From Actinomycetota bacterium (GTDB taxonomy: Bacteria > Actinomycetota > CADDZG01 > WHSQ01): 39,011 nt of DNA. The position numbers and the translations under genes were made by a program. Of the stretch, positions 1-20,406 are shown piece by piece. The first letter of the stretch is position 1; each line of letters starts with the position of its first letter. The notes under the pieces were generated by a model. The model saw only the letters and a program-made list of their open reading frames with translations. It did not search any database and was not told the DNA's origin. The stretch lies in contig WHSQ01000004.1 in the NCBI GenBank assembly GCA_009380005.1, forward strand, positions 62,332 to 101,342, given 5' to 3'.

Positions 1-1368
1 TGAATGTGCCGCTCGAGCGAGCTCCGCCCCCTCCACGTTGGGAGCGTACGCGACCCAGGTATCCACCATCTTCGCCAAGCGTTCCCGGCATTCCGCCTCG
101 GTCCAGAAGGTCGCATCCCCTCCGTGGGGACGCGACGGCACGAATTCCCATCCGAAGGCCGTGTGCATGCCCGCCGGGGCTTGAGTGGCGTCGACCCGGG
201 TCGGAACGCTCGCGTGGAGCGACACCGCCGAAGGCAGCTTCCCGGCGCGGACCTCGCGCATGTCGCGCTCGACGTCGGTGCTCGATCGGTAGCCGAGACA
301 CAGGTTGAGAGCACCTGCAGCGTCTTCGGGGTCACCGAAGGTGGGGGCCTCCTTCAACGCCAGGTGCAGCCCCATCAGTGCCTCTCCGTTCCACGGGAAA
401 GATTCCAGATCCTCGACGAGAGAGGCGTCTAGATGCCGTCGACCGACGAGGTCCAACAGAGTGAGCGGTGCGGGAACGCTGCTCACCACCGCCTTTCGAA
501 CCGCGATGCGCCGGCCGTCGTCGAGTACAACCGCCGCGGCCCGGCCGGTAGATACGTCTATCCGCTCGACGGACGCATCCGTCAGCACTTCGCCTCCGTT
601 CGAATACACCTGTTGGGCAAGTCCATGAGCGAGCTCGTAGCTGCCGCCCTCCACCATCAGGCAATCGACGAGACCGGCCACTGCCTGGAGTACCACGTAG
701 CCGGTCCCCGGCACGTCGAGAACGGGGAGGTAGCCGCGCAAGGCGGACGTGAACAGGACGAGCGCCCTGAGCTCCTCGGAGGCGAACGTCTCGCGGACCA
801 GTTCGAGAGCCGAGTACCCACTGAGCTCGAGGTACCTCCGCCCGCGCGCGCTCCTCTGGAGGAGCTCGCGCGTCTCGTCCTCGTCCACCGGGGGCGAGAA
901 GCGCAAAGGCTCGAGGATGGAGGCCGAAAGTTCACGAGCTTCCGTGAAAAAGTCGACGAACCTCCCCGCGTCCTGTCGGTCGAAGCGCCCGATGTTCTCG
1001 ACCGACCTCTGGAGATCCGAGTAGATGATCAGAGCCTTGCCGTCTCCCAGCGGCAACGCGTTCTGCTTCTCGGGCTGGATCATCGTCACTCCCGATGTCT
1101 GCAGGTCGAGGTCCCTCCAGAGCTTGTACCGAGGCGTCCAGCGCATGAAATACGCGTGCAGGTTGTGCTTGAAGAGCGGCAGCGTCAACTCCTCTGTCTT
1201 CAATCCCCCGCCCAGCCGCTTCCCCGCTTCCACCACAGCGACTTCCAGTCCCGCCTTCGCCAAGTACGAGCCACACACGAGACCGTTGGGCCCGGCGCCG
1301 ATCACGACCACGTCGGCCTCCCGCACGGCCTCCGGCGCGGGTCCAGAACCCTTCCGTCCGTCGCTCAT
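1..1368 (-). CDS. FAD-dependent oxidoreductase, phytoene-desaturase/amine-oxidase-like (C-terminus cut by window edge)
   Basis: The minus-strand frame is open from an ATG at 1368 to base 1, giving 456 codons without a stop; the C-terminus lies outside the window. The N-terminus has a Rossmann dinucleotide-binding motif GAGPNG (residues 24-29) and the acidic residue at the end of the second strand (VVEAG, about residue 47), followed by RLGGGLKTEE, the usual continuation in the CrtI/phytoene-desaturase and amine-oxidase branch of FAD oxidoreductases. The family oxidises C-C or C-N bonds in the cytoplasm or at the membrane; the substrate cannot be read here. The start overlaps the stop of the upstream alcohol dehydrogenase by 4 nt (ATGA), so the two are translationally coupled and probably act in one pathway. 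Confidence 0.88.
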   Translation of the reverse strand, partial: MSDGRKGSGPAPEAVREADVVVIGAGPNGLVCGSYLAKAGLEVAVVEAGKRLGGGLKTEELTLPLFKHNLHAYFMRWTPRYKLWRDLDLQTSGVTMIQPEKQNALPLGDGKALIIYSDLQRSVENIGRFDRQDAGRFVDFFTEARELSASILEPLRFSPPVDEDETRELLQRSARGRRYLELSGYSALELVRETFASEELRALVLFTSALRGYLPVLDVPGTGYVVLQAVAGLVDCLMVEGGSYELAHGLAQQVYSNGGEVLTDASVERIDVSTGRAAAVVLDDGRRIAVRKAVVSSVPAPLTLLDLVGRRHLDASLVEDLESFPWNGEALMGLHLALKEAPTFGDPEDAAGALNLCLGYRSSTDVERDMREVRAGKLPSAVSLHASVPTRVDATQAPAGMHTAFGWEFVPSRPHGGDATFWTEAECRERLAKMVDTWVAYAPNVEGAELARAAHS

Positions 1369-2402
1369 CGCTCCCCCCTCCATACCAACGCGCCTCGGCC
1401 CAGCAACTCCCCGGCCCGCAGCGCTCCGTGCACCGCGCCGACCTCGCCCGGGCCGACCGTCTCGCCGACCACCGCCTCCACGCGCCCGGAGGACACGAGG
1501 GCCGACGCTTCGATCAACTCGGACCTCGAGGCGTAACGACTGCCCACGATCGAGCTCTCGTGGAAGACCAGCGTCCGGGGATCTACCTCGAACGTCCTCC
1601 CACGGAAGGTGGTCAGGACGACGAGACGGCCGCCGGCCCGCAGATGTTCGATCGACCAGGTAAGGCTCTGCCTGGTTCCGACGAGATCCACGATCGCGTC
1701 GGCGCCACCGTCGAACTCATCGAGCTCAGCGGAAAGATCCGAGGAATCCACGGGGATCGCACCGAGGCGAGAGACGAGACCCAGCTTCTCGTCGGTCCTC
1801 TCCAGACCCGCCACGCGCGCTCCACACGCGGCCGCTACCTGGATCATGTGCGCGCCTACCCCGCCGGCCGCTCCGATCACCGCCACGAGGTCGCCGGTCC
1901 CGAGTCGCAGCCTTCGCTTGCACACGTGAACCGATGTGGCAACGGCATCGGGGATAACGGTGGCCTCGGTCGCGGAGAGGTCGCCCTCGAGAGGCACGGC
2001 GTTCCCCGCGGGCATGATCGTTAGAGGCGCGTAGCCACCGTCGCGGTGGACGCCGTACCAACCCGCGCGGCGATCACAACGCGACTCGTTGCCGGATAGG
2101 CACCAACGACATCTGAAGCAGGACAGGTAGAAGTACGCCATCACACGATCGCCCACCTGTGGCGACACGACACCCTCACCGGTGTCCGCGACACGACCCA
2201 CGACTTCGTGCCCGGGGGTCAGCGGAAGCAACTCCGGAGAATCATCGAGGTCGCCGTTCATGCAGTTGAGAACGGTAAGCCCGATGCCGCAGGCCTCGAC
2301 CTCGACGAGCACCTCTCCCGGGCCGGGGTCGCGCACCTCGATCGCTTCCCAACGCGGCTCCTCGCCCCAAGCGTGCAACCGATACCCGTCTACGACCGTC
2401 AC
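1365..2402 (-). CDS. Zinc-dependent alcohol dehydrogenase (MDR family)
   Basis: A 345-residue medium-chain dehydrogenase/reductase of normal length. Visible hallmarks are the catalytic-zinc ligands Cys38 (EACGI) and His65 (PGHE), the four structural-zinc cysteines 95, 98, 101 and 109 (C-x2-C-x2-C-x7-C), and the NAD(P)-binding GAAGGVG at residues 177-183. It should oxidise an alcohol to an aldehyde or the reverse with a nicotinamide cofactor in the cytoplasm. It is the first gene of a two-gene minus-strand unit with the FAD oxidoreductase. An aldehyde dehydrogenase lies 2 kb away, so an alcohol-aldehyde-acid route is a plausible inference. The substrate is unknown. Confidence 0.93.
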   Translation of the reverse strand: MTVVDGYRLHAWGEEPRWEAIEVRDPGPGEVLVEVEACGIGLTVLNCMNGDLDDSPELLPLTPGHEVVGRVADTGEGVVSPQVGDRVMAYFYLSCFRCRWCLSGNESRCDRRAGWYGVHRDGGYAPLTIMPAGNAVPLEGDLSATEATVIPDAVATSVHVCKRRLRLGTGDLVAVIGAAGGVGAHMIQVAAACGARVAGLERTDEKLGLVSRLGAIPVDSSDLSAELDEFDGGADAIVDLVGTRQSLTWSIEHLRAGGRLVVLTTFRGRTFEVDPRTLVFHESSIVGSRYASRSELIEASALVSSGRVEAVVGETVGPGEVGAVHGALRAGELLGRGALVWRGER

Positions 2403-2470
2403 GTCATCCCTCCCCGGCCTCGACAGGTATAAATGCAGACAAGTCGTTCAGACACCGCCGGGAGGTAACC
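2403..2470. promoter_or_regulatory. Divergent intergenic region between alcohol dehydrogenase and selenoprotein gene; strong RBS
   Basis: This 68-nt gap separates the divergent starts of the alcohol dehydrogenase (minus, 2402) and the OsmC-type gene (plus, 2471), so it must hold promoter elements for at least one of them. A short AT-rich stretch (TATAAAT, about 2427-2433) could be a -10 element. The perfect Shine-Dalgarno GGAGG at 2461-2465 sits 5 nt before the ATG at 2471 and supports that start strongly. Confidence 0.5.
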
Positions 2471-2926
2471 ATGACGGTGAACGCGAAGTGGCAGGGCGGA
2501 TTCTCGTGCCTCGCGACCGTACCGGGCACGGACATCCGGCTGGAGGGAGACGAGCCGGAAGAGCTGGGAGGCGACGGTCGGGGTCCGAGCCCCTTCATGT
2601 TGCTCGAGATGAGCCTCGCCGATTGAACGATCGTCACGCTCGTGGGGGTCGCCTACGAGAAGAACATCCCTCTCGGGTCGATAGAGGTAGACGTCAAGCG
2701 CAAGCAGAACCTCCTCGGGATCGGCCCGAAAGATCCATTGCAGAGATCGTTGAAGATCACCGAGCTCCGCCGGACGATCCACGTGACGGGTCCGCGTAGC
2801 AGGCAAGAGGCGGATGTGCTCCTGTGGGGCGCGGACAACTGTCCCGTATCGAACTCTTTGGAAGGCGCGATCGGAATACGCACACGTCTGCAAGTAGACG
2901 GACCATGGACCGGTCATGTCGGATGA
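2471..2926 (+). CDS. OsmC-family protein, predicted selenoprotein (in-frame UGA = Sec52)
   Basis: Read from the ATG at 2471 (RBS GGAGG) through an in-frame TGA at 2624-2626 to the TGA at 2924-2926, this gives a 151-residue protein, a normal OsmC-family length. Before the TGA it has the family's opening pattern (MTVNAKWQGG, then a GGDGRGPSP turn and LLEMSLAD). After it the helix TIVTLVGVAYEKN and strand IEVDV follow, then ADNCPVSNSL with the second family cysteine at residue 124. The UGA falls exactly where OsmC/Ohr-type proteins carry their first, peroxidatic cysteine. Family members reduce organic or inorganic hydroperoxides with a two-cysteine centre; here it would be Sec52/Cys124. A SECIS-like hairpin lies directly downstream. 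Standard gene callers would split this into a 51-residue stub and a later fragment. The alternative is a nonsense-mutated pseudogene, but the intact frame after the UGA, the cysteine alignment and the hairpin argue against it. The 3' end overlaps the convergent permease by 13 nt. Confidence 0.85.
2639..2659 (+). promoter_or_regulatory. Bacterial SECIS-like hairpin downstream of the UGA codon
   Basis: CTCGTGGG (2639-2646) pairs with CCTACGAG (2652-2659) over 8 base pairs, with one G-U pair, closing a five-base loop GGUCG (2647-2651). Bacterial SECIS elements lie inside the coding region just after the UGA. They have a small apical loop with a G among its first two bases, located roughly 16-37 nt from the UGA. 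Here the loop starts GG, 21 nt after the end of the UGA (2626). The element would recruit SelB with Sec-tRNA. Neither selB, selA, selC nor selD lies in the window, so the rest of the machinery must be elsewhere. Confidence 0.8.
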
Positions 2927-4095
2927 GGCCGTTCGGACCGCGGCGCCACCAGCAACCAACCGAAGGCGACGACGGCGCCCGCCAGGAAGGCAGCAAGCGA
3001 GATCGCGTCGCGAACGGCCAACGCAACGAGGGAACCCGCGAGCCAGGCCAGCGTGGCGTGTGAAGGCTTCGGACGATTCTTGAGGATGGGCACGGTCAGC
3101 ACCACTACGAGTGCCGGTGGGATGACGACGGCGATCGCTTCGAGGAAACCGATGAGGTTTCGATCGAAGCGGCCGGCACCCAGGGCGATGGCGACCAGAC
3201 CGACGAGCGACATCGTCACGATGTGACGCGTGCGCCGGATGCTGTCGATCGAAACGGCGCAGGAATAGACGGCGGTGATTGCCGGGCCGACGGCGGACAA
3301 CATCAGGAACGCTTGCCCGGCTTCCGGCCGCTCTGTGCCGGCCAGAACGTCCGCCATGTTGTGCAGGCCGGTCCGCCGGTACAGCCAGATGCCCAGGCCG
3401 GCGAGCGCCACGTAGGGAACCAACATGGTCAGCCCGACCTTCCACACGTCCCTCGCATGCCCGAGGTCCGCAGTGAAGTCCGGGGCCCGCATGGCGAAGA
3501 CGATCGCGTAGACGATGGCTCCACCCATGGCCGTGGCAAGTCCCTGCAGATCGACACCGATGTCCGATGGTTGCCGGGACACCGGAACCGTCAGCACGGT
3601 GATCAAGGTAAGAGCCACCGAGGAACCAGCCGTCAGGTAGACGAGACGGTTCCATAGGTCCTGTCCCGACAGGGCGGCGCCGAGCACGACGCCACCGAGC
3701 AGGAGCGAGCCCAGCCATAGCGGAGCCTCGAGGAGATCGGCGAGGGCGGCGCCCCCAAGCCCGAGATAGAAGCCGCACCAGCCGATCATCGCGGCCACCA
3801 GCGCCAGGGTCAGGGCCACGGGACCAGGTCCCCGGCCGAGGACTTCCTGGAGGTTCGCTCCCATCGCGAGACCGTGGCGCTGGCCGAGGGATCCGTGCGC
3901 CACGGCCACCAGGTACAGGGTGACGGCGCCGAGCGCGATGCCGATAGCCGCGGTGGTAACCCCGGTCGTTCTCGCCAAGCCGGCGCCGACCATCAACACC
4001 GCCGGACCGGTGCCGATCCCTATCCACGCCCCACTCCGGTCGTGCCACGCAACCGGGGCGTCGCCGCGAGCTTCGTAGGATGCTGTGGGAATCAC
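2914..4095 (-). CDS. Membrane permease, NCS1 / cytosine-permease-like
   Basis: A 393-residue protein with about 12 hydrophobic segments and short loops. The N-terminal WIGIGTGPAVLMVGAGLA and the following helix ending GSLGQRHGLAM resemble nucleobase-cation-symport-1 carriers such as CodB, which are of similar length. It would import a small nitrogenous substrate across the inner membrane with Na+ or H+. The start is a GTG at 4095, preceded by an unusually AT-rich stretch. It converges on the OsmC-type gene, with a 13-nt overlap of the two 3' ends, and diverges from the aldehyde-dehydrogenase/ABC operon. The substrate is not readable; the assignment is to superfamily level only. Confidence 0.75.
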   Translation of the reverse strand: MIPTASYEARGDAPVAWHDRSGAWIGIGTGPAVLMVGAGLARTTGVTTAAIGIALGAVTLYLVAVAHGSLGQRHGLAMGANLQEVLGRGPGPVALTLALVAAMIGWCGFYLGLGGAALADLLEAPLWLGSLLLGGVVLGAALSGQDLWNRLVYLTAGSSVALTLITVLTVPVSRQPSDIGVDLQGLATAMGGAIVYAIVFAMRAPDFTADLGHARDVWKVGLTMLVPYVALAGLGIWLYRRTGLHNMADVLAGTERPEAGQAFLMLSAVGPAITAVYSCAVSIDSIRRTRHIVTMSLVGLVAIALGAGRFDRNLIGFLEAIAVVIPPALVVVLTVPILKNRPKPSHATLAWLAGSLVALAVRDAISLAAFLAGAVVAFGWLLVAPRSERPHPT

Positions 4096-4281: not shown

Positions 4282-5784
4282 GTGAGCAAGCGTGACCATC
4301 TGATCTGGATCGACGCGCAGGAGGTGGCGGCCGCGGACGGCTCCACCTTCGAGGTAGAGAACCCGGCCACCGGGGAGGTGGCGTTCGAGGTTGCTCACGG
4401 CAAGACGGCCGACATCGACCGGGCCGTCGCCGCCGCTCGACGAGCCGCCGATGAAGGTCCCTGGCCACAGATGCATCCCCGCGAGCGGGGTCCGATCCTC
4501 CGTCGGGCTGCCGAGCTCCTGAGGGCGCGTCGGTCGGAGCTCGCCGATGTGGAGGTCCGGTCCACGGGGCGACCGATGCGTGAGATGCACCAACAGGTCG
4601 GCCGAACGGCGGACTGGCTCGACTTCTTCGCCAGCGTCGCCGAAACCCACGAAGACCGTGTCGTACCGGCGATCGGGAATCTCCTCAACTACGTCCGGCG
4701 AGTGCCGGTCGGCGTCGTCGGCCAGATAACCCCATGGAACCATCCCCTCTTGATCACGATGAAGAAGGTGGCGCCCGCGCTCGCCGCAGGCAACACCATC
4801 GTCGTGAAACCATCCGAGGTCGCGCCGGTCGCTCCCATCGAGCTCGGCCGCCTCCTCAACGAAGCCGGCGTTCCCCCCGGCGTCGTCAACGTCGTCCCCG
4901 GCTTCGGTGCCGAGGCGGGCAAGGCGCTGTCCGAGCACCGCGGGATCGACAAGCTCGACCTCACCGGCGGCACCGAGACCGGCCGCCACATAGCGGCGGC
5001 CGGCGGACGCAACCTGATCCCCGTCCAGGCCGAGCTCGGAGGCAAGGCCCCCGTCCTCGTCTTCGAGGACGTCCCCATCGCCAGCGCGGTCGCGGGAGCC
5101 ACCTTCGCCACCTTCGTCGCCTCCGGACAGAGCTGCATCGCCGGAGCGCGGCTCCTGGTGCAGCGAACGCGTTACGAAGAACTCCTGCGTGCCCTGATCG
5201 ACCGAGTCTCGAGCATCCGCGTCGGGGATCCCATGGATCCGGACACCCAGATGGGTCCCCTGGCGTCCAAGCAGCAGCTCGCAAGGGTCATGGAGCTCGT
5301 GACTTCCGCCCGCGACGAGGGCGCAACGATCCTGTGTGGCGGGGACCGGCTCGGAGGCGACATCTTCGACAACGGCTACTTCTTCGCCCCGACGTTGATC
5401 GCAGACGTCCGGCAGGACATGAGGATCATGCGCGAGGAGGTCTTCGGGCCGGTCCTCACGGTGCAATCCTTCGAAGACGAGGATGAGGCCGTCGAGCTCG
5501 CGAACGACTCTGACTTCGGGCTGGGGGCGGCGGTGTGGACGAACGACTTGAAGCGCGGCCACCTCGTCGCTCAGCGCATCCGATCCGGATCCGTGTGGAT
5601 CAACGATCATCATCGGGTCGATCCGGCTTCACCCTGGGGTGGCTTCAAGGACTCGGGGGTCGGGTCTGAGAACGGAGTCGTCGCGTACAACGACTACACG
5701 ATCCAACAGAGCATCCTGGTCAACCTCGACCGCGGTTCGTTCGACTGGTTCGCGCCCGAAGCAAGGGATCTGCGATACAGCTGA
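4282..5784 (+). CDS. Aldehyde dehydrogenase (NAD(P)+-dependent, ALDH superfamily)
   Basis: A 500-residue protein of typical ALDH length. Visible motifs: PWNHP (151-155), the cofactor-loop GGTETG (229-234, usually GSTxxG), the general base Glu251 in ELGGKAP, the catalytic Cys285 in GQSCIAG, and EEVFGPVL in the C-terminal part. It oxidises an aldehyde to the acid in the cytoplasm. It is the first gene of an operon in which the next gene, livH, overlaps it (stop and start share a base at 5784). Coupling to a complete ABC importer suggests that its substrate, or a precursor, is what the importer brings in; this is inference. A betaine-aldehyde-, aminoaldehyde- or gamma-glutamyl-aldehyde-like role is possible, but the sequence does not decide. 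Confidence 0.95.
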   Translation: MSKRDHLIWIDAQEVAAADGSTFEVENPATGEVAFEVAHGKTADIDRAVAAARRAADEGPWPQMHPRERGPILRRAAELLRARRSELADVEVRSTGRPMREMHQQVGRTADWLDFFASVAETHEDRVVPAIGNLLNYVRRVPVGVVGQITPWNHPLLITMKKVAPALAAGNTIVVKPSEVAPVAPIELGRLLNEAGVPPGVVNVVPGFGAEAGKALSEHRGIDKLDLTGGTETGRHIAAAGGRNLIPVQAELGGKAPVLVFEDVPIASAVAGATFATFVASGQSCIAGARLLVQRTRYEELLRALIDRVSSIRVGDPMDPDTQMGPLASKQQLARVMELVTSARDEGATILCGGDRLGGDIFDNGYFFAPTLIADVRQDMRIMREEVFGPVLTVQSFEDEDEAVELANDSDFGLGAAVWTNDLKRGHLVAQRIRSGSVWINDHHRVDPASPWGGFKDSGVGSENGVVAYNDYTIQQSILVNLDRGSFDWFAPEARDLRYS

Positions 5785-6647
5785 TGAGCGGCCGGGAGTT
5801 CGTTCTGCACACGCTGAACGGGTTCTCCCTCGGTGCGCTGCTCTTCCTCCTGTCCAGCGGGTTCCAACTCATCTTCGGGCTGATGCGCATAGTCAATCTG
5901 GCGCACGGATCCTTCTATCTGGTCGGTGGCTACGTCGGCCTCACCGTTCTGATCGCAGGGGGCAACTTCTGGATGGCGCTGGTCGCGGCCGCCCTTGCGA
6001 TAGGGGTGACCGGGCTCATCGTCGAGCGCACTCTGCTCCGGCGGCTGCGAGGACAGCCCATGCCCGAGGTGCTGCTCACGGTCGGTTTGTCGCTCATCGC
6101 TGCCGACCTATCGCTCGCACGATGGGGCGGCGATCCGATCCTGTTGCCTCGCCCCGAGCTCCTGCGTGGAACCGTTGAGCTAGGAGGCGTGACTTACCCG
6201 GTCTTCCGGATCGGCGTGTTCGGTCTTGGCTTGCTCGTCGTGGGACTCATGTGGTTGCTGCACACTCGAACGCGCATCGGCGCGATCGTCAGAGCCGGAG
6301 TCGATGACCGTGAGATGGTGGCTGCACTGGGCATCAACGTCGAAGCGATCTTTACGGGGGCCTTCACGTTGGGCGCCTTGCTCGCGGGGGTCGCCGGGGT
6401 GATCGGAGGGGTTTTCCTGAGCCTCTATCCGGGAGCCGACGGAGAGATCCTCCTCTACGGCTTGGTCGTCGTGATCCTTGGAGGCCTCGGGAGCCTGCCG
6501 GGAGCCGTCGTCGGAAGCCTGCTCGTAGGACTGATCGATGCCTTCGGCCGGGCGATGGTGCCCTCGCTCTCTTACTTCCTTCTGTTCGCCCCGATGGCGC
6601 TGATCCTCATCTTCCGTCCCCACGGACTGTTCGGGAAACCGGACTGA
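5784..6647 (+). CDS. livH: Branched-chain amino acid-type ABC transporter permease, LivH family
   Basis: A 287-residue integral membrane protein with the LivH signatures: the N-terminal LFLLSSGFQLIFGLMRIVNL helix, AHGSFYLVGGYV, the cytoplasmic loop GAIVRAGVDDREMVAALGIN contacting the ATPases, and a glycine-rich C-terminal segment (VVILGGLGSLPGAVVGSLLV). It forms the inner-membrane channel with LivM. The start ATG at 5784 shares a base with the stop of the aldehyde dehydrogenase, and its own stop overlaps livM. The LivH family also serves urea, amides and aromatic acids, so the family name does not fix the substrate. Confidence 0.94.
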   Translation: MSGREFVLHTLNGFSLGALLFLLSSGFQLIFGLMRIVNLAHGSFYLVGGYVGLTVLIAGGNFWMALVAAALAIGVTGLIVERTLLRRLRGQPMPEVLLTVGLSLIAADLSLARWGGDPILLPRPELLRGTVELGGVTYPVFRIGVFGLGLLVVGLMWLLHTRTRIGAIVRAGVDDREMVAALGINVEAIFTGAFTLGALLAGVAGVIGGVFLSLYPGADGEILLYGLVVVILGGLGSLPGAVVGSLLVGLIDAFGRAMVPSLSYFLLFAPMALILIFRPHGLFGKPD

Positions 6648-7762
6648 TGCTGACGATCGAACGAGGCCGTTGGTTGGCCCTGGCCGTCGTCGGGGCGGGG
6701 GCGGTCGCGCTCCCCTACATGGTGGACTCCTTCTACGTGAACATGGCGACTCAGGCCCTCTACCTGGGCCTCTTCGCCCTGTCCATCAACCTGATCGCCG
6801 GGTATGGCGGGATGGTCACGCTCGGACAGGCCGGCATCTCGGGCATAGCCGGATACACCCTCGGGATAGCCGCCACGCAATTCGGCATGTCGCTCGGTCC
6901 CGCGCTCGTCGTCGGCTTCCTCGCGACGATCGTCGTCGCGGTGGTGTTCGGAGCGCTCGCCGTTCGGACCGGCGACGTTTACTTCCTCATGATCACCCTC
7001 GCCCAGGGGATGATCATCTGGGGCATAGCGCAACGGTGGACCACCGTGACGGGCGGCGACAACGGACTCCGGGGGATCGATCGGCCCGGGTTCGCGCTGG
7101 AATACTGGAAGTACTACTACTTCACGCTGGGCGTCGTGGCCGTATGCACGCTGCTCGTTACCCTGATCACGCGTTCGACGTTCGGACTATCGCTCAAGGG
7201 CATCCGGGAGTCGGAGGGACGTATGCGGCCACTGGGCTACAACGTGACCCTGCACAAGTTCTGGGCCTTCACGATCGCCGGTGCTGTCGCGGCGATCGCG
7301 GGCTTGCTGCTCGCCATGTTCAACCAGTTCGTCAGTCCCGCGGCGGTACACGTCAAGGCATCCGCGGACGGTCTCCTCATGTCGATCCTCGGGGGCATGG
7401 GAACCATCGCCGGCGCCTTCGTCGGGTCATCTCTCTTCGTGGTGGTGACGAACTACGTGAGCGGCTACTTCGATCGCTGGCCCACGCTGCTGGGATTGAT
7501 CTTCGTGCTCACGATCCTGTTCGCCCAAGACGGGATCGTGGGGGCATGGAACCGGTTGGTTTGGGCCCCGCTGCTTCGAAGGAGGGGTCGAGAACTCGAG
7601 GCCGAACGGACTGTCGTCGGAGTAGGTGGCCCCCTTGCGAGAGGACAGCCGGTCCCGGCCTCGACCTCGAACGTCGACCGGGGCGGAGAACGAGCGCCCG
7701 TTCCCGTCGGCGGCTCTCCGGCTTCGAACGCGATCGAGGACAAGGTGGATCGAGAAGCTTGA
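6647..7762 (+). CDS. livM: Branched-chain amino acid-type ABC transporter permease, LivM family
   Basis: A 371-residue partner permease. Family features include LYLGLFALSINLIAGYGGMV, the LGQAGISGIAGYTLG stretch, and the cytoplasmic coupling loop around GLSLKGIRESEGRMRPLGYN. The last 70 or so residues form a hydrophilic Arg/Glu/Gly-rich tail after the final membrane helix, which many LivM proteins lack or have shorter. The start ATG at 6647 overlaps the livH stop. It lies in the inner membrane and pairs with LivH to form the translocation path. Confidence 0.94.
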   Translation: MLTIERGRWLALAVVGAGAVALPYMVDSFYVNMATQALYLGLFALSINLIAGYGGMVTLGQAGISGIAGYTLGIAATQFGMSLGPALVVGFLATIVVAVVFGALAVRTGDVYFLMITLAQGMIIWGIAQRWTTVTGGDNGLRGIDRPGFALEYWKYYYFTLGVVAVCTLLVTLITRSTFGLSLKGIRESEGRMRPLGYNVTLHKFWAFTIAGAVAAIAGLLLAMFNQFVSPAAVHVKASADGLLMSILGGMGTIAGAFVGSSLFVVVTNYVSGYFDRWPTLLGLIFVLTILFAQDGIVGAWNRLVWAPLLRRRGRELEAERTVVGVGGPLARGQPVPASTSNVDRGGERAPVPVGGSPASNAIEDKVDREA

Positions 7763-7802
7763 AACGGCGATGCAGCTCAAGCCCGTCGAGAAGGAGGTAC
7801 GC

Positions 7803-9122
7803 GTGAGAGCAACGAGAACCAGAAGGCAAGCGATAGTAGGACTGGTGGGGGTTATCGCGATCTTCGCCGCCGCATGCCAGGCCCCGGGCGAGGAAGAGAG
7901 CGGGGAAAGCGAGGGCCCGATCACCGTCGGTGTGCTCACTCCAACGACCGGGACCGTCGCCGCAGCGGGAACGGACATGCTGAACGGCTGGAACCTCTAC
8001 TGGGAACTCAACGGCGATGAGGTCGCCGGCCGCACGATCGAATCGATCCACGAGGACACCGCGGGCGATCCCCAGACGGGCCTGCAGAAGGCACGCAAGT
8101 TAGTGGACCAGGACAACGTCCAGGTGACCGTCGGACCTCTGCTCGCGAACGTCGGGTACGCGATCGCCGAGTACCTGGAGACGCAGCCGGACGTAATCGG
8201 GCTGAACCCCGTCGCATCGGCCGACGACCTCAGCCAGCGCACGCCGGTCGAGAACTTCGTTAGGACCGGGGGTTGGCAGAGCTCCACCCCCCACCACGTG
8301 GCCGGGGACTGGGCTTTCGACCAGGGCTACGAACGAGTGATCACCCTGTGCCAGGACTACGCCTTCGGACACGAGGTCTGCGGAGGATTCACGAACACAT
8401 TCACCGACCGAGGCGGGACGATCGTCAAGAAGCTGTGGGCGCCCCTTGGTTCGTCCGATTACAGCTCCTACCTGGCGCAGATCAACCCGGGCCAGGCCGA
8501 CGCAGTGTTCATGCTCACCGTGGGCGCGGACTCGGGCCGCGTGATCAAGCAGTGGGAGGACTTCGGCCTGAAAGGAGAGATCCCGCTGATCGCAGGCGAG
8601 ACCACGTTGGAACAGTCCCTCCTGCGGGCGATGGGTGACGAGGCCGTCGGCCTGCAATCCTTCGGCCACTACGCCGAGGGACGGGATTCTTCCGCCACTC
8701 AGGACTTCGTGGAGGCCTATCAAGAGGAATACGACGACGTCCCCTCTTACTACTCGTGCGCGCTCTACACGGGTGCGCAATGGTTCGCCCAGGCCGTTGA
8801 AGACGCGGAGGGAGACTTGAGCGACACCCAAGCCTTCCTGGACACCCTGAGGTCCGTCGAACTCGAGGACTCGTGCTTCGGCCCGATGGCCCTGGACGAG
8901 CATGGGGGCACCATCATGAACGTGTACCTCCGAGAAGTCGAGAAGGACGAGGAGGGACGGCTCGTGAATCGACCGATCGAGGAGTTCAACGACGTGAGCC
9001 AGTTCTACTGGTACGACCCGGAAGCGTTCCTGGACCAACCCGTATACAGCCGTGAGTATCTGGGCGAGGACTGGCCCACGTCGTGTGACGCGTTCGCCGA
9101 GGACTGTCCACTCGAGGAGTGA
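7803..9122 (+). CDS. livK: ABC transporter substrate-binding lipoprotein, LivK family
   Basis: A 439-residue periplasmic-binding-protein-like lipoprotein. I chose GTG 7803 because GGAGG (7793-7797) lies 5 nt upstream and the resulting N-terminus is a clean lipoprotein signal: Arg-rich n-region, hydrophobic core IVGLVGVIAIF and lipobox AAAC with Cys25. The longer in-frame extension to 7626 would run back into livM. After an acidic linker the mature domain begins PITVGVLTPTTGTVAAAG, typical of type-I LivK-like binding proteins, and continues with GDPQTGLQKARKLVDQDNVQ. It should be anchored on the outer face of the membrane and deliver ligand to LivHM. It holds several cysteines (CQDYAFGHEVC, SCALY, DSCFG, TSCDAFAEDC) that could form disulfides. 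Confidence 0.93.
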   Translation: MRATRTRRQAIVGLVGVIAIFAAACQAPGEEESGESEGPITVGVLTPTTGTVAAAGTDMLNGWNLYWELNGDEVAGRTIESIHEDTAGDPQTGLQKARKLVDQDNVQVTVGPLLANVGYAIAEYLETQPDVIGLNPVASADDLSQRTPVENFVRTGGWQSSTPHHVAGDWAFDQGYERVITLCQDYAFGHEVCGGFTNTFTDRGGTIVKKLWAPLGSSDYSSYLAQINPGQADAVFMLTVGADSGRVIKQWEDFGLKGEIPLIAGETTLEQSLLRAMGDEAVGLQSFGHYAEGRDSSATQDFVEAYQEEYDDVPSYYSCALYTGAQWFAQAVEDAEGDLSDTQAFLDTLRSVELEDSCFGPMALDEHGGTIMNVYLREVEKDEEGRLVNRPIEEFNDVSQFYWYDPEAFLDQPVYSREYLGEDWPTSCDAFAEDCPLEE

Positions 9123-9123
9123 C

Positions 9124-9933
9124 GTGACCGCGCCTGAGGATCTTGCAGACCGCGTCGAAGATGGGCGGGCAGACGGGGGTTCCCCCTCCCCCGTCCTGCG
9201 CGTCCACGGTCTGACACGTACTTTCGGTGGACTCACGGCGGTCGACTCCGTGTCATTCGAGGTGATGCCGGGAGAGCGATTGGCTGTGATCGGTCCGAAC
9301 GGCGCCGGCAAGACGACGTTGTTCAAACTGATCGCCAGAGAGGAGCGGATGACTGCGGGCCGCGTCGAGTTCAATGGGAAGGACATCAGCAGGATCCCCA
9401 ACTACGAGCTCGCGCGGTTGGGCATGGGTCGCACCTACCAGGTGACTCGCATCTTCCCGGCGCTGACGGTCCAGGAAAACGTGATGCTCGCCGCTCAGGG
9501 AACGAGACGAGGCAGATTCAGCATGTTCGCTCCGGCGAGAGGCAACTCCTCGATCCGGGATCCCGCTCGGGAAGCGATCGCTCGCGTCGGCCTCGAGAAG
9601 ATGGCGCCCATCACGGCGGCCGAGCTTGGACATGGCCAGCAGCGCCAGCTGGAGCTGGCTCTGGCCCTCGCCATGGAACCCATCGTGCTCCTGCTCGACG
9701 AGCCCGGCGCGGGGCTTTCGGCCAGCGAACGGGGGATGATGCGGGAGCTCGTTGCGTCCTTGCCCGCCGACATCACCGTCTTGCTGATCGAACACGACAT
9801 GCAGCTCGCCCTGGGTCTCGCAGATCGCTGCATTTGTATGCACAACGCGAAGGTGATCGCCGAGGGAACGCCCGAGGAGATCAAAGCCGACAGGAAGGTG
9901 CAGGACATCTACCTCGGGAAGGCTCTCGAGTAG
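9124..9933 (+). CDS. livG: ABC transporter ATP-binding protein, LivG family
   Basis: A 269-residue ATPase. GTG 9124 was chosen because it lies directly behind the livK stop with a GAGGAG site 4 nt upstream. Walker A is GPNGAGKTT (57-65); the signature helix reads LGHGQQRQLELALAL, the degenerate form usual in LivG proteins; Walker B is VLLLDEPGAG, followed by the H-loop in LLIEHDMQ. It would bind the cytoplasmic loops of LivH/LivM and pair with LivF. Its stop overlaps the GTG start of livF. Confidence 0.94.
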   Translation: MTAPEDLADRVEDGRADGGSPSPVLRVHGLTRTFGGLTAVDSVSFEVMPGERLAVIGPNGAGKTTLFKLIAREERMTAGRVEFNGKDISRIPNYELARLGMGRTYQVTRIFPALTVQENVMLAAQGTRRGRFSMFAPARGNSSIRDPAREAIARVGLEKMAPITAAELGHGQQRQLELALALAMEPIVLLLDEPGAGLSASERGMMRELVASLPADITVLLIEHDMQLALGLADRCICMHNAKVIAEGTPEEIKADRKVQDIYLGKALE

Positions 9934-10646
9934 TGCTTCGGATCCACGATCTTCACTCGTCCTACGGCCTTGCCGAGGTCCTGTCCGGCATCTCGATGGA
10001 GGTTCCCGACGGAACGCTCGTGGCCGTGATGGGCAGGAACGGCATGGGCAAGACCACGCTGTGCCGTTCCATCATGGGTCTCGCACCTCCCGTCGTCTCG
10101 GGCGGCGAGATCGAGTGCAACGGCACCGCCTTGGGCGGGCTTCCCGCTTACAGGCGGGCGCAGCTCGGGATCGGGTACGTGCCGCAGGGCCGGCACGTCT
10201 TCACTTCGCTAAACGTCGTCGAGAACCTGACCGTCGCGGCTCGTTCTGAGGAGAACGGCAACGAGCCGTGGGACCTGGATCGGGTGTGGGAGCTGTTCCC
10301 GCGCCTTGCGGAGCGCAAGACACATAGGGCAGGTCAGCTTTCCGGCGGGGAACAACAGATGCTTGCGATCGCTCGCGCCCTGATGACTAATCCCGGGCTG
10401 CTCGTGATGGACGAGCCCTCGGAGGGGCTAGCTCCCGTCCTCGTCGAGACCCTCGCCGAGCGGCTCCACGATCTCAAGAGCTCGGCCCTGTCGATCCTGC
10501 TCGTCGAGCAGAACCTGTCGCTCGCGTTACGGCTCGCCGACGTCGTGTACGTCGTGGAGAACGGCGGCATCGTCTTCCACGGAACACCCGCCGAGTTGGA
10601 CGGCTCCGAGGAGATCAAACGCCGGCACCTGGGCGTGGGAGTCTGA
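9933..10646 (+). CDS. livF: ABC transporter ATP-binding protein, LivF family
   Basis: A 237-residue ATPase that starts at GTG 9933, inside the TAG stop of livG (TAGTG). Walker A is GRNGMGKTT (34-42), the Q-loop reads IGYVPQGRHVF, the signature is LSGGEQQMLAIARAL, Walker B is LLVMDEPSEGL and the H-loop region is LLVEQNLSLAL; all are canonical for LivF. It closes the five-gene transporter set and completes the ATPase dimer with LivG. Its stop lies one base from the convergent stop of the SARP regulator. Confidence 0.94.
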   Translation: MLRIHDLHSSYGLAEVLSGISMEVPDGTLVAVMGRNGMGKTTLCRSIMGLAPPVVSGGEIECNGTALGGLPAYRRAQLGIGYVPQGRHVFTSLNVVENLTVAARSEENGNEPWDLDRVWELFPRLAERKTHRAGQLSGGEQQMLAIARALMTNPGLLVMDEPSEGLAPVLVETLAERLHDLKSSALSILLVEQNLSLALRLADVVYVVENGGIVFHGTPAELDGSEEIKRRHLGVGV

Positions 10647-12954: not shown

Positions 12955-15603
12955 TTAGTACCTGCTGAGGACCGCGAAGCGACCCTCGAACTGGAGCGGC
13001 GATGGCGTCAGGTTGGTTACGGATATCCAGTAGGTGCAGCGCTCGGCGTCCCCGCGCTCGACCTCCACGGTCCATCGGACCTGAGGTGCACCGGGTCGTG
13101 GCGTCGTGGGCATCACCGTCCAGAGGACGTGCCACGTCGCCGGCCAACCCCACGTGAACCAGCGCCGCGTTTCGTTGGCCGCCAGGGAACCGGTCCATTG
13201 GACGCCGCACCATGGTTGCGTCATCCAGCCGTCTACCGGGATCTCCCATACGCCGCGATTGCGCGTTCCTGCTCGGAGCACGCGAGCGTGGGGGTGGAAT
13301 ACCAGGTCACCGATGTACGCGTTGGGCAGAGCGCTCGAGAAGTTGGACCAGCTCGCACCCGAGTTCCAGCTCTGGTAGACGCCGAGATCGGCGGCAACCC
13401 AGACCCGCTGTGCGTTGCCGCTGTCCACCTCGACGGCATTGATCGGCAGATTGGGGAGGCCGGCGGACACGTTCGTCCACGTGTTTCCTCCGTCCTCCGA
13501 ACGGAACACACGCCCGCCGCCGACCCTCGAGCTGGTGGCCCATATCCGTCCGCCGCCGCCCGGCGTCGCGTGCAGGTCGCTCACCCAAGCCCCCGCTCGT
13601 GGCGTCGTGAGCGCGGCCAGCGCGCCCCAACTCCCGGTCCAGCGGGTGCGGAAGATGCGGCCGTCGGTCAAGCCTACGATGACCGTGTCGGCGTCGGGGA
13701 TGTAGAGAGCGCTGGCGGTCCCCGCGGCCGGGAACCCCAAACGCGTCCAGGTGGTTCCAAGGTCCCGAGATACGTATAGCGCCTGCCCTCCTACCGCGAT
13801 CGTGTTCCCGGTGGTGGCACTGCATTCGAAGGGCACGTAGAAGAGTCCCGGACCTTCGCCGGCGGGGCGAGCCGGAGTGATGTTCACCCAGCTGCCGAAG
13901 TTCCCGCCGTTGGTCGACCGCCACAGCCGTCCCCATTGCCAGGTGTGGAAAACCACCTGCGGGTTGGCACGGTTCACACCGCAGTCGCCGCCATCCGCGT
14001 CGCTAACGTGCTCCCAGGTCGAGGGGCCCGTCCATCGGTTCGTCCCATTGTCCTGGGTACCCCCGATCAGCCACCGAGACGTGCCGACATGATGCGCGAT
14101 GTACTCGAACTCGCTGATCTGCAATCCGTTGTTGCAGTGGACCCACGTGATGCCTCGATCCCGCGAGCGATAGACACCTCCGTCGTTGCCGGCGTAGACG
14201 GTGTTGGGCGCTCCGGGTTCGAACGCGATCGAATGCTGGTCCGGGTGGATCGAGTTGCCGACGGTCTTGCTCGAGAGGTTGACCCACGTCCATGTCCCAC
14301 TCGAGAGGGTCCCTCGGTGGATGTCGATCGCCCCGCAGTAGATCTGATTCGAACGGTCCGGGGCCACGGCCAGGTACCAGTCGTACCAGGATTGCCCCGT
14401 GGCCGCCCCCGGAGGGATGCCGACCGCGGTCCAGACCCCACGGGCTCGACGCCACAGATAGGCGGTCGGGATCGAGCTCGGTCCCGTGTAAGGCGCCCCC
14501 GTCCCCCATGCGTACGCGATCCTGGGATTGGAAGGTGCGATCGCCACGGCCAGACGATCGAAGCTGCCGGGCGAACCGCGAAGTCCGATCCGGGTCCACG
14601 TCGTCCCGTTGTCGTTGGATCGGAACAGCCCGTCGCTACACCCGGCGAGTATCTGGGCACTGCCCGGCACCTTGCTGATCGACCACGTACGCGCGCTTCG
14701 GCGTCGGGTCCAGTTCACGCCCCTGTCGGTGGAGACATAGAGCCCTCGGGTCGTCCCCGCGTAGAGACGCCGGCCGTCGGCGGGATCCACCACGATGCAG
14801 TAGAAGCCCTGGCCGACGAAGGGGGCCGTGCACAGCGTCGACCACGTCGTGCCGCCGTTCGTCGACCGCAGGATGCCGACCCCCAGATAAGACCACCAAT
14901 CCCCTTCGCCCGTGCCGCAGTAGACCGTCGCCGGGGCCGAACGATCGAACGCCAAAGCCCCCACGGTGAGCGTCGCCTGGTAATCGGTGCGCGGGCTCCA
15001 GGAGGCGCCTCGGTTGAAGCTCTCCCACACTCCCCCGTTCGCAGCACCGGCCAGAACGTGGGCCGCGTTGGAGGGATCCGTAGCCAGAGCGGAGACCCGA
15101 CCCGATACGTTTACGCGACTGCTCCCGTAGGTCTGTCCGTTGATGACGGTCCATGGGCCACACGACCTCCAATGGGGGCCCAGCCCGACCGGCGGTCCCA
15201 TCTGCTCCGTGGCTTCCAGGTAGGCGGTCGCGATCGACTCTGCGGTTGCCGTGTCATCCAGGGTGCCGGCCTCATCGGGCTCCGGCTCCTCCGCGCGGGC
15301 GGTGCGGCCGGTCGTGGACTTGCGGGCCGTGGACTTGCGGGCCGTGGACTTGCGCTGTCGCTTCGGCCGCTTGCCGCCGGCCGGAGCGATCCCGGCCTCG
15401 GCGGCGATCTCCATGACCTCGGCGACGGCTTCGTCGGAGACGGCGCTCTGGACCGTCTCTTCGGCGAGCTCGGTCAGGCCATCGCTCTCGAGCATCTGCA
15501 GGAGACGCAGCAGTGCCTTGCCGCCGGGGGGCCGCGGCGGTGACTCTCCCTCCTCCAGCACGGTTCCCGCCGGAACGGGCGCTTCGTCGCCGGGGCCTTC
15601 CAT
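12955..15603 (-). CDS. BNR/VPS10-type beta-propeller repeat protein with C-terminal sandwich-like domain, no signal peptide
   Basis: An 882-residue protein. I chose ATG 15603 because AGGAGG lies 7-8 nt upstream; an ATG 18 nt earlier would place that site inside the gene. Layout: acidic/helical N-terminus (1-75), a very basic stretch KRPKRQRKSTARKSTARK (about 78-95), an acidic linker, then from about residue 145 to 790 at least nine BNR (Asp-box-like) repeats. Examples are GILRSTNGGTTWS, GLYVSTDRGVNWT, GVYRSRDRGITWV, LYVSRDLGTTWT and VFRSEDGGNTWTNV. These fit one or two beta-propellers as in sialidase/VPS10/photosystem-assembly-like proteins. The final 85 residues form a domain repeated in the next gene. 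No sialidase catalytic triad is evident and no export signal or anchor is seen, which is unusual for this fold. It is the first gene of a three- or four-gene operon. Confidence 0.88.
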   Translation of the reverse strand: MEGPGDEAPVPAGTVLEEGESPPRPPGGKALLRLLQMLESDGLTELAEETVQSAVSDEAVAEVMEIAAEAGIAPAGGKRPKRQRKSTARKSTARKSTTGRTARAEEPEPDEAGTLDDTATAESIATAYLEATEQMGPPVGLGPHWRSCGPWTVINGQTYGSSRVNVSGRVSALATDPSNAAHVLAGAANGGVWESFNRGASWSPRTDYQATLTVGALAFDRSAPATVYCGTGEGDWWSYLGVGILRSTNGGTTWSTLCTAPFVGQGFYCIVVDPADGRRLYAGTTRGLYVSTDRGVNWTRRRSARTWSISKVPGSAQILAGCSDGLFRSNDNGTTWTRIGLRGSPGSFDRLAVAIAPSNPRIAYAWGTGAPYTGPSSIPTAYLWRRARGVWTAVGIPPGAATGQSWYDWYLAVAPDRSNQIYCGAIDIHRGTLSSGTWTWVNLSSKTVGNSIHPDQHSIAFEPGAPNTVYAGNDGGVYRSRDRGITWVHCNNGLQISEFEYIAHHVGTSRWLIGGTQDNGTNRWTGPSTWEHVSDADGGDCGVNRANPQVVFHTWQWGRLWRSTNGGNFGSWVNITPARPAGEGPGLFYVPFECSATTGNTIAVGGQALYVSRDLGTTWTRLGFPAAGTASALYIPDADTVIVGLTDGRIFRTRWTGSWGALAALTTPRAGAWVSDLHATPGGGGRIWATSSRVGGGRVFRSEDGGNTWTNVSAGLPNLPINAVEVDSGNAQRVWVAADLGVYQSWNSGASWSNFSSALPNAYIGDLVFHPHARVLRAGTRNRGVWEIPVDGWMTQPWCGVQWTGSLAANETRRWFTWGWPATWHVLWTVMPTTPRPGAPQVRWTVEVERGDAERCTYWISVTNLTPSPLQFEGRFAVLSRY
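15314..15354. repeat. Direct tandem repeat of 15 bp (2.7 copies) inside the beta-propeller gene
   Basis: GTGGACTTGCGGGCC occurs at 15314-15328 and 15329-15343, and its first 11 bases again at 15344-15354. On the coding (minus) strand each unit encodes a KSTAR-type pentapeptide, giving the basic KSTARKSTARKST segment. The copies are identical at nucleotide level, so the expansion is recent or prone to slippage; copy-number variation would keep the frame. Confidence 0.9.
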
Positions 15604-15792
15604 CGCCCAACCTCCTGCCATCTCAACGGGATCTTGCAGATATCGTGCGGACGGCCCGTCACGCCAACGTCACCCGAACGTCACGTCGAGACGGCGGATC
15701 GGTCATCGGCTCGACACGCGGGGCCTTCGGCGCGAGGTTGTGTCGATGCCCGGCACCGCGAAACCCGAGGACCGCACCGAGAAGAGGACGGC
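15604..15792. promoter_or_regulatory. Divergent intergenic region upstream of the beta-propeller operon
   Basis: This 189-nt region separates the divergent starts of the beta-propeller gene (minus) and a small acidic protein gene (plus). It must hold the promoter of the three- or four-gene operon. The Shine-Dalgarno AGGAGG for the minus-strand start lies at about 15611-15616 (seen as CCTCCT on the plus strand). No clear -35/-10 pair or operator repeat could be recognised by eye. Confidence 0.4.
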
Positions 15793-15994: not shown

Positions 15995-17422
15995 TCAGTC
16001 GGCTATGAAATGGAACGTCGCTTCGACCTCGGTCCGCTGCGTCATCGGCAGGAGGCAGGGATCGCTTCCGGTGCAGGACCCGGTCCAGCCCTCGAAAAAA
16101 GAGCCCTCGGCGGGTATCGCCGTCAGCGTCAGTCCCTCTCCCTTGGGGACGTCCAGGACGCAAGTGGGAGGACACATCACGCCGGCCGGGCCGACCTCTA
16201 CGGACCCGGCCCCTCTTCCGGCTGGCGAGATGGTGAGTTGCACCGTGGCCGCCGGTCGCTCCTCGAACCTAGCCGTGACCGATGTTGCGTCGTCCATCGA
16301 TAGCTCGCATCCGCCGGTGCCCGCGCACCCACCGGACCAACCCGAGAACACGAATCCTTCGGCCGGGATCGCGGACAGGCTGAGGCCCTCCCCCCGGCGA
16401 GCGTCGTAGGAACATGTGGGAGGACATTCCACTCCCACGGCCCCCATCGTGACGAGACCCTCACCCTGGACCGAGATCGTCAAGGGAACCATCGCGGCCG
16501 GGCCACTCTTGCGGAAGCGTGCGGTGAGAGACGTGTCTTCGTTCATCTCCACGATGCAGCGCGGGGCGTCGGAGCACCCTTCGGACCAGCCGGCGAATCG
16601 AAAGCCCTGAGAAGGCACCGCGACCAACCTCAACTTGGCCCCCTCCTCGGCATCGAACGAACATGTCGGCGGACACGTGACCCCGGGCCGGATCCTTACG
16701 AGCCCGCTACCCTTCGTGCGCAGCGTGAGGCCGATCAGGTCGCCACCCCCCGTCTTGCCCTCGGGGACGTCGGCCATCGCGACGGTGATTATGAGGATCG
16801 CGACGAGGATCGCAGCGGTCACGTACCGGAGGAACCGCCTCTTCTGCGGACGGCGCGGGTCGGATCCTGAAGAGACCCCGGCTAGCACCGCGAGGAGGTC
16901 CTTCTCTAGCTCCGCGGCGCCTTCTTCCGCGCTGCGTACGCCTTCGCAGACCTCACGAGCCAGCTCGGGGAAGCGAGATGCCAGTTGATCCTTGAGCGCG
17001 GGAGCCACTAACAGGGGGACGCCGGACCTCGAACCCTCTTTCTCGTCGCGACCTTCCACGCGCGCGATCAGCCGGTCGCGAAGCGCGTCCAGAAGGGCAG
17101 CTCCGGCGACTCCGGCAACCAGCGCGATCCAGATCAGCGTGGGCAGCCCAACGAGAGCGGACCCATCCGTCTCGGTGCGAAAGGCGACCGCGAAGATCGC
17201 CGCGTTGCCCGCCACGACGCCGACGAGAACGGGTCCCAGGAAACCCAGATCGATCCCGCCCTCAACCCGGTGTGGCAGCGAGATCTGATTGTCGAGACGA
17301 GGCCGCTCCTCCGTCACCACGCCCACGGGGAACAAGATGTCGTAGACGAACCCACCCAGCGCGGCGAGCGAGGAGGTAACCGCCACGATCGTTACCAGTT
17401 GAGTCGCGAGGTCCAGCTCCAT
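15995..17422 (-). CDS. Membrane protein with three Cys-rich InlB/Flg_new-like beta repeats
   Basis: A 475-residue protein: membrane helices at about 5-27, 60-82, 92-112 and 199-217, with a charged cytoplasmic-type region between the third and fourth. Three homologous repeats follow at about 230-305, 312-387 and 393-472. Each contains CPPTC, a hydrophobic AxPxxGFxFxGW-type core, a pair of cysteines spaced C-x5-C or similar, and a final strand with TAxF. These match the divergent InlB B-repeat type found in surface proteins, and the four cysteines per repeat suggest two disulfides each. With four helices the repeats would lie outside if the N-terminus is outside. It is the last gene of the patatin/MBL operon, 10 nt behind the hydrolase gene. 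Confidence 0.8.
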   Translation of the reverse strand: MELDLATQLVTIVAVTSSLAALGGFVYDILFPVGVVTEERPRLDNQISLPHRVEGGIDLGFLGPVLVGVVAGNAAIFAVAFRTETDGSALVGLPTLIWIALVAGVAGAALLDALRDRLIARVEGRDEKEGSRSGVPLLVAPALKDQLASRFPELAREVCEGVRSAEEGAAELEKDLLAVLAGVSSGSDPRRPQKRRFLRYVTAAILVAILIITVAMADVPEGKTGGGDLIGLTLRTKGSGLVRIRPGVTCPPTCSFDAEEGAKLRLVAVPSQGFRFAGWSEGCSDAPRCIVEMNEDTSLTARFRKSGPAAMVPLTISVQGEGLVTMGAVGVECPPTCSYDARRGEGLSLSAIPAEGFVFSGWSGGCAGTGGCELSMDDATSVTARFEERPAATVQLTISPAGRGAGSVEVGPAGVMCPPTCVLDVPKGEGLTLTAIPAEGSFFEGWTGSCTGSDPCLLPMTQRTEVEATFHFIAD

Positions 17423-18608: not shown

Positions 18609-19192
18609 GTCTGGATCTCGTCCTCGAGCCGCCACCGCTCGCCCACGTCGGCAGGCAACGTGGAGAGCATCGCTCCGTAGGAAGCCAGTTTCGCCAGCAA
18701 GCGGCCCTGATCGGTGAGATCCACCGGGCGGGTGAGGATCGTGGCCAGGTCCTCGACCCGCACCTCTCCGTGCTCGGCGTGTTGACGTAGGTCGTCGAGA
18801 AGCCGGGCGGCACGCCCCTTCTTGACCCGGGCGGCGAACGTCATGCCGATGCGTACCTCGACGCCTTCGTCGCCGGGTGTGCCATCCGCCCGCCGGCGCC
18901 GGCTCGAGGCGTCACCCCCGGTGCTCCCCGTCGCGAGGAACCTCTCGAGACCGGGTCGCGAGGTGCCCACCTCGACGGGATCGCCGGCGACGACGAATCT
19001 GAGGCGGCCCTGCTCGTCGGCGTGAGGCCACGGCGCGAACGAGAGCCCGACCCATCCCTCGACGATCTCGTCCACGACCACGTAGACCAGCCGTTCGTGC
19101 TCGTCGCTCAACGACGGCTCTGCCCTATGACCCGGATCCCAAGGGCGCTCGGGCACGACGGGCTCATCCGGGCGAGAAGGCGGCCAGGTCAC
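18605..19192 (-). CDS. Uncharacterised protein between patatin and MBL hydrolase genes
   Basis: A 195-residue protein if started at GTG 19192, which overlaps the patatin stop by 4 nt (GTGA); longer in-frame starts would run deep into the patatin gene. The N-terminal part has alternating hydrophobic strands (ERLVYVVVDEIVEGWVGLSF, GRLRFVVAGDP). An Arg/Gly/Asp-rich linker follows, and the C-terminal 70 residues are helical and charged (AARLLDDLRQHAEHGEVRVE, GRLLAKLASYGAMLSTLP). No catalytic motif, cysteine or membrane segment is visible. Its overlap with both neighbours (4 nt each side) implies that it is made in stoichiometric amounts with them, so it may be their adaptor or regulator. I do not recognise the family. 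Confidence 0.75.
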   Translation of the reverse strand: MTWPPSRPDEPVVPERPWDPGHRAEPSLSDEHERLVYVVVDEIVEGWVGLSFAPWPHADEQGRLRFVVAGDPVEVGTSRPGLERFLATGSTGGDASSRRRRADGTPGDEGVEVRIGMTFAARVKKGRAARLLDDLRQHAEHGEVRVEDLATILTRPVDLTDQGRLLAKLASYGAMLSTLPADVGERWRLEDEIQT

Positions 19193-20406
19193 GGAAGTGC
19201 CCTCCAGCGAGGAAGTTCGGAGGGGAGCTCTTCCCGGTGATAGGCGCTGAGCGTGGCACCGGAGAGCCACCAACCCCTGTAGATCAACTTCTCGCAGATG
19301 TCCCGAGGGAACTCGTCGAACGACGTCTTGTAGGCAGCGACGGCATCCACGGAGGAGCGATCCTCGTCCCGGCCCTCGGTCCACTCGGTCGGTGCGTCGG
19401 CCACGCTCGAGGCGAGCCCGAAGAGCACTCCCATCCGAGCCTCCTTCGGCGGTTCCCGGCCCTCGGCTCGGGCGCGCTCGAACATCTGGAAGCGTGCCAC
19501 CGAGTCCCGGAACCGGAGCGCCGTCGACTGTCGGTACAACAGCGAGTTGGCCCGCTGGAGATCACGCACCAGGGGGATGCCTCCGTACCGGCCGGTACGA
19601 AAGAGTCCGCCAGCGTTCAGGTTGACGATCAAGGCATGGGGGATGTTGTCCAGGGCCTCGATACCTGAATTGTCGTAGGCCCCGCCGTCCAACAGGTAAG
19701 GGGTGCGTCCTGCCGCGCAAGGGAACTCGATCCCCTCGATCCCGAGTGGCGCGAAGGCCCCGGGCACCGCCGCCGAAGCGGCCGCGGCGGTTGCCAGTCG
19801 CAGACCCGTGCCCTTCGTGTGAACGCGCCCCATCACCCAATCCCCCACGATCTCTCGCTCGAAGGCGAACCGGACACCGGTCGTCACGCTCGCTGCGTTG
19901 ATTATGAAGCGGCATTGCGAGGATAGGTCCTCCAGCTTGCGACCATCGAAGAACCACCGATCGAACATGTCCGCCAGTAGGTGGGTGCGCGTCTTGGAAC
20001 CGATCGTGCGCCAGATGTTGCGCAGCAATGCCCGGCTCAGCGAAGTGCTCGAGATCTTCTTCACGAACGGGCCGACGACGAGATCATCAACCGCTTCGGC
20101 CGTGAATCCGGCGTCCTGAAGCTTCTCGTACCGATGCGCGAACAGACCGTTGGCCAAGGATCCGCCCGATACGGACGACACGTAGCGGACGCGTGGCAGC
20201 ATCCCGGCATCTGCGACGAAGCGGAGGACCCCCAGAGCGGCAAGGGTGGCGCGGAAGCCACCCCCGGAGAACGACAGGGCGAGCGCGGTCCCCTCGTCCG
20301 AAGGGGGCGGTTCGCTCGCCCGCAACAGATCGTCACACGCAGCGATCAGGTCATTGCGTGCCGTGCCGATCGCCGGCGATTCCAGCGGGGACTTGGAGGT
20401 CACCAC
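19189..20406 (-). CDS. Patatin-like phospholipase
   Basis: A 405-residue protein from GTG 20406 (a second GTG follows directly). The oxyanion-hole motif is SGGGFR (47-52), the nucleophile elbow reads SVSGGS with Ser80, and the catalytic aspartate is Asp240 in LLDGGAYDN, giving a complete Ser-Asp dyad. The elbow has SxSxG instead of the classical GxSxG, as in some cytosolic-PLA2-like members. No signal peptide is present. The enzyme should hydrolyse acyl esters of membrane lipids from the cytoplasmic side. It is followed with 4-nt overlaps by an unknown protein and the MBL hydrolase, and preceded by a membrane protein gene 90 nt upstream. Confidence 0.9.
   Translation of the reverse strand: MVTSKSPLESPAIGTARNDLIAACDDLLRASEPPPSDEGTALALSFSGGGFRATLAALGVLRFVADAGMLPRVRYVSSVSGGSLANGLFAHRYEKLQDAGFTAEAVDDLVVGPFVKKISSTSLSRALLRNIWRTIGSKTRTHLLADMFDRWFFDGRKLEDLSSQCRFIINAASVTTGVRFAFEREIVGDWVMGRVHTKGTGLRLATAAAASAAVPGAFAPLGIEGIEFPCAAGRTPYLLDGGAYDNSGIEALDNIPHALIVNLNAGGLFRTGRYGGIPLVRDLQRANSLLYRQSTALRFRDSVARFQMFERARAEGREPPKEARMGVLFGLASSVADAPTEWTEGRDEDRSSVDAVAAYKTSFDEFPRDICEKLIYRGWWLSGATLSAYHREELPSELPRWRALP

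Follow-up and report, generated by a model that had tools for sequence, protein, structure and literature searches.

OsmC-like selenoproteins carrying the motif UxxT have been described in the Sargasso Sea survey of 2005 (Zhang et al., PMC1088965), in the GOS survey of 2008 (PMC2398784) and in later reviews, the first-pass annotation of the present locus having pointed to metagenomic surveys in general. Within the wider superfamily, catalysis by Ohr is supported by the side chains of Arg19 and Glu51 (PMC5962072), OsmC proper keeps its catalytic Arg in a Gly-rich loop, the YhfA subfamily is without known activity, and the OsmC-family protein FTN_1133 lacks thiol peroxidase activity (PMC4069020). 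Twelve selenoprotein families were already listed for Actinobacteria in 2006, although none of the papers covered by our literature search named an actinobacterial selenocysteine (Sec)-containing OsmC; the earlier expectation that such a case would be unusual is thus only partly borne out.

Here we analysed a 39,011-nucleotide stretch from the draft genome of an uncultured actinobacterium (the window), which contains an OsmC-type gene interrupted by an in-frame TGA. The gene is a member of an already known kind of selenoprotein, found in a new lineage, and we put the probability at about 0.93 that it encodes a full-length OsmC-family selenoprotein, in which SelB and a downstream hairpin direct Sec to codon 52 in place of the catalytic Cys.

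A UGA codon in the catalytic cysteine column

The reading frame opens with an ATG at position 2471 and comprises 51 sense codons, the start included, ahead of the TGA at 2624–2626, after which the second half stays open until the TGA at 2924–2926, giving a joined frame of 151 residues. Sequence and translation agreed with the first-pass annotation in the coordinates of the gene, its ribosome-binding site and its intact downstream half. The gene had also been expected to escape standard gene calling, and automatic annotation indeed splits it in two. A promoter/terminator scan revealed no promoter and a single terminator-like pattern, located upstream of the UGA and near the shuffle background. 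The features of the locus are collected in Table 1.

Table 1 Features of the osmC-type locus and its neighbours (positions in the window)
Feature	Position	Strand	Remarks
Zinc-type alcohol dehydrogenase family gene	1365..2402	-	Divergent neighbour; kept in Dino_bin16
Ribosome-binding region GGGAGGTAACC, RBS GGAGG	2459..2470	+	Directly 5' of the ATG; from sequence
Predicted osmC-type selenoprotein gene	2471..2926	+	151 codons + stop; UGA at codon 52 very probably read as Sec
Cys13 codon	2507..2509	+	Common to the Dino_bin16 homologue
In-frame UGA (predicted Sec52)	2624..2626	+	Catalytic-Cys column; TGA also in the Dino_bin16 homologue
Predicted bacterial SECIS hairpin	2639..2659	+	Stem CUCGUGGG / CCUACGAG, apical loop GGUCG; identical in Dino_bin16
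Cys124 codon	2840..2842	+	In GADNCPV; second Cys of the family, likely resolving partner of Sec52
Predicted multi-pass membrane protein	2914..4095	-	Convergent neighbour; kept in Dino_bin16
Aldehyde dehydrogenase	4282..5784	+	Followed by branched-chain-type ABC transporter (5784-10646)

The assignment to the OsmC family was borne out by the read-through protein, which matched Pfam OsmC (PF02566) with 48 bits against a gathering cut-off of 27.5 and an E-value of 1.8e-12, residues 34–138 covering nearly the whole profile (positions 1–99 of 100). The UGA had been proposed to coincide with the first conserved Cys of the family, and our alignments place it exactly there. Codon 52 is occupied by Cys in all 31 homologues drawn from across the phylum, and in a larger alignment by Cys in 79 of 80 other OsmC rows, the remaining row carrying TGA. 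Likewise, Cys124, named earlier as the partner cysteine, aligns with the second Cys of the family (69/80 rows), and the two redox residues of the OsmC/Ohr superfamily correspond here to the predicted Sec52 in the helix motif and to Cys124 in the CPV motif. Besides the closest homologue described below, Cys13 is present in 9 of 80 other homologues. Matches in the PDB were Ohr proteins and an OsmC chain of fusion length, with their Cys opposite codon 52. The UGA at the active-site Cys very probably encodes selenocysteine.

A search for homologues with Cys or UGA at this position, as recommended by the first-pass annotation, yielded a relative from a different genus that also has UGA at codon 52, and Cys in more distant homologues. 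The single-protein search of the genome contigs returned no relative; the search with the two-row alignment led to the record WHSV01000046.1 of Actinomycetota bacterium isolate Dino_bin16 (G013), a separate assembly from another genus of the same family. This homologue, found in one of 16 genomes of the family, is about 60% identical and brings the Sec sequences of this exact subfamily to two, both from fragmented draft genomes. The copy in Dino_bin16 (L067 6007-6437) bears one frameshift near codon 111, which places its carboxy-terminal part in another frame and may represent an assembly error or decay; the sequence beyond the frameshift is still well conserved. The genome holding the window is itself a draft (3.8 Mb, 639 contigs, completeness 100, contamination 1.43), which might lead one to suspect that the TGA was created by sequencing or assembly error, yet with the same TGA in a separate assembly from another genus we consider the chance of this negligible.

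Selenocysteine machinery and conservation downstream of the UGA

We searched the genome for selA, selB, selC and selD, as the first-pass annotation had advised, and all four were present. One selC exceeded the cut-off, with 84.5 bits and the anticodon tca (UCA); selA (539 bits) and selB (341 bits), both likewise over their cut-offs, lie near each other on contig C33, and selD was found with 386 bits. Among the 16 family genomes examined, 11 carry a tRNA-Sec, including that of Dino_bin16, which indicates that the Sec trait is native and a binning artefact unlikely.

Comparing the window gene with its Dino_bin16 homologue after the UGA, with codons 53–64 left out, gave a dN of about 0.36 and a dS of about 2.8, and the resulting dN/dS of about 0.13 indicates purifying selection and hence selective maintenance of translation beyond the UGA. 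Codons 53–64 are conserved beyond the level of the protein, as identical codons were used for 11 of 12 same-residue positions, whereas outside this block the figure was 29 of 67 (Fisher p = 0.002). The two sequences differ within these first 12 codons after the UGA by one base, which is synonymous. Together, the same TGA codon in another genus and this block of codon-level conservation make a coincidental UGA very unlikely.

These data bear on the possibility of a pseudogene, in which the TGA arose by mutation of a Cys codon (TGC or TGT) in a gene undergoing decay. TGA is one base away from either Cys codon and the Dino_bin16 copy has its frameshift near the 3' end, but the TGA is common to two genera at about 60% identity with purifying selection behind it, the DNA following the UGA shows stronger conservation than the remainder of the gene, and the Sec machinery of the genome is complete, rendering gene decay very improbable. 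We assign a similarly small chance to the UGA acting as a true stop, be it of a 51-residue product or in a split or regulated gene where GTG 2642 starts a separate carboxy-terminal protein. An open reading frame of 94 aa does run from this GTG, and some natural termination is expected at Sec UGA codons; however, neither half contains the whole active site, no evident ribosome-binding site precedes GTG 2642, the stretch between the UGA and this GTG is itself conserved codon by codon, and the homologues are single proteins.

The conserved block contains the predicted hairpin, with 8 bp and a loop that begins with GG, starting 12 nt after the UGA and leaving 20 nt between UGA and loop. Bacterial SECIS elements are described as following the UGA directly and as having a guanosine at the start of a small apical loop, and the geometry observed here agrees with this description as judged by a consensus rule. 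The same rule was satisfied after 46 of the 862 TGA triplets in the window, a background of 5%, so that the hairpin taken singly is weak evidence, which does not apply to its conservation in the DNA. When 60 nt of the window sequence are folded on their own, another structure is favoured, whereas shorter folds and the Dino_bin16 sequence favour the predicted SECIS hairpin. The Rfam SECIS family (SECIS_1) did not match, the same model being silent in every control genome as well, and cmscan of the region gave no match.

Taken as a prediction from sequence, Sec insertion by SelB at the codon 52 UGA is strongly supported. SelB loaded with Sec-tRNA(UCA) would bind the hairpin and selenocysteine would be inserted at codon 52, where Sec52 would take the place of the catalytic Cys. 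The pseudogene, the assembly error and the split gene were rejected on the conserved TGA, the selection after the UGA, the Sec machinery and the single-protein homologues.

Family placement and putative function

The best NCBIfam model for the protein was NF041052, OsmC_like_Se (OsmC-related (seleno)protein), which aligned over the full length with an E-value of 7e-14 and 52 bits, a score below the model's cut-off of 95 bits. Like the OsmC-like selenoprotein of the marine surveys, the window protein belongs to the OsmC family and has UGA (predicted Sec) where the catalytic Cys would be, with a bacterial SECIS, here the predicted hairpin, directly following. Unlike the UxxT type, it reads U52-T-I-V-T, with T at U+1 and U+4 and V at U+3. 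Cys-containing OsmC/YhfA-type proteins from Actinomycetota, among them fusions of an alpha/beta hydrolase with OsmC, are about 30–40% identical and carry Cys rather than UGA at the position of Sec52, some of them within much longer open frames or fusions. The nearest PDB chain, 9wo1, falls among these Cys-containing OsmC/YhfA-type relatives, and tblastn against plasmids gave weak matches only, to hydrolase-OsmC fusions. An AlphaFold model derived from the two-row alignment reached a pLDDT of 35, a quality too low for use.

The protein resembles Ohr in its superfamily and two-Cys arrangement, and the PDB entries 6mjn and 3eer align nearly over their full length, but the catalytic Arg and Glu positions of Ohr correspond to Phe11 and Phe42. 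Furthermore, the Ohr model TIGR03561, whose cut-off is 88.85 bits, scored 21 bits, and the SACOL1771 model stayed far below its cut-off. Based on the Ohr model score and the Ohr catalytic residues, we did not accept an Ohr label, nor the fast peroxidase proposed by the first-pass annotation, the YhfA branch being one without shown peroxidase activity.

Most likely, by analogy to the Cys-Cys pair of the OsmC family, Sec52 and Cys124 would form a selenenylsulfide redox pair, which may serve the reduction of a peroxide or another electrophile connected with the alcohol and aldehyde dehydrogenases encoded next to it. Whether the protein functions as a peroxidase is uncertain. As a refinement that leaves Sec insertion untouched, it may instead act on another substrate, as a thiol/selenol oxidoreductase or sensor of the OsmC/YhfA type, a suggestion to which we give slightly less than even odds. 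The two Phe residues and the inactivity of FTN_1133, alongside YhfA-type members without an assigned activity, speak for such a role, whereas selenoproteins that reduce peroxides typically have a Sec/Cys pair and Arg37 (Lys in the Dino_bin16 homologue), which lies within the Gly-rich loop as placed by sequence alignment, could replace the OsmC-type Arg.

The gene order in Dino_bin16 is alike, with a divergent alcohol dehydrogenase, a convergent membrane protein, an aldehyde dehydrogenase and two branched-chain-type permeases. This kept order suggests that the predicted selenoprotein may serve an alcohol/aldehyde oxidation pathway. The membrane protein had no Pfam or NCBIfam match. Elsewhere in the window, positions 12958-15621 on the minus strand encode an 888-aa protein with Sortilin-Vps10/BNR repeats, near which lie a Flg_new_2 repeat protein (15998-17422) and a patatin-like protein (19192-20406).

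Candidate Sec-OsmC lineages and the origin of Sec

Two further actinobacterial loci were observed. One, L098 (G236:C45:3488-3844), is a full-length OsmC gene from another actinobacterial family in which the catalytic Cys position holds an in-frame TGA (LCA-U-INVS). It has a hairpin GGCC-AGGAU-GGCC and is a separate candidate Sec-OsmC; no selC was found in its genome, which is only 67% complete. The other, L099 (G190:C176:5931-6101, minus), is the amino-terminal half of an OsmC with TGA at the Cys, reading U-M-L-T and thus UxxT like the marine Sec-OsmC. Its hairpin is GUCC-GGUAC-GGAC and its genome has selC; the gene appears frameshifted and truncated ahead of the next gene.

In a phylogenetic tree, Sec required three state changes, and the window protein stood apart from L099. 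A single clade of all four Sec rows was rejected (p 0.0017), as was a clade of the window pair with L098 (p 0.0097), whereas joining the window pair with the short L099 was not rejected (p 0.107), the tree being a quick one with long branches and the groups having been named after it was seen. These tests make separate Cys-to-Sec origins likely, although less settled with respect to the UxxT type, from which the window lineage probably represents a separate Cys-to-Sec lineage, judging by the sequences compared. More tentatively, and at somewhat under an even chance, Sec may have arisen at one and the same OsmC Cys on several independent occasions in uncultured Actinomycetota, the window lineage forming a second, non-UxxT Sec-OsmC subfamily that is associated with a cluster of alcohol/aldehyde dehydrogenase genes and lacks the Arg and Glu of Ohr, whose activation of Cys might be replaced by Sec.

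The finding adds a well-supported selenoprotein to a little-known actinobacterial lineage in which tRNA-Sec is common, and suggests that Sec-OsmC proteins extend beyond the UxxT type known from the marine surveys. Ordinary in principle, it has its value in the corrected annotation and in what may be an independent gain of Sec by an OsmC protein, and it lends itself to the question of whether Sec can take over the activating role that Arg and Glu play in Cys-based Ohr enzymes.
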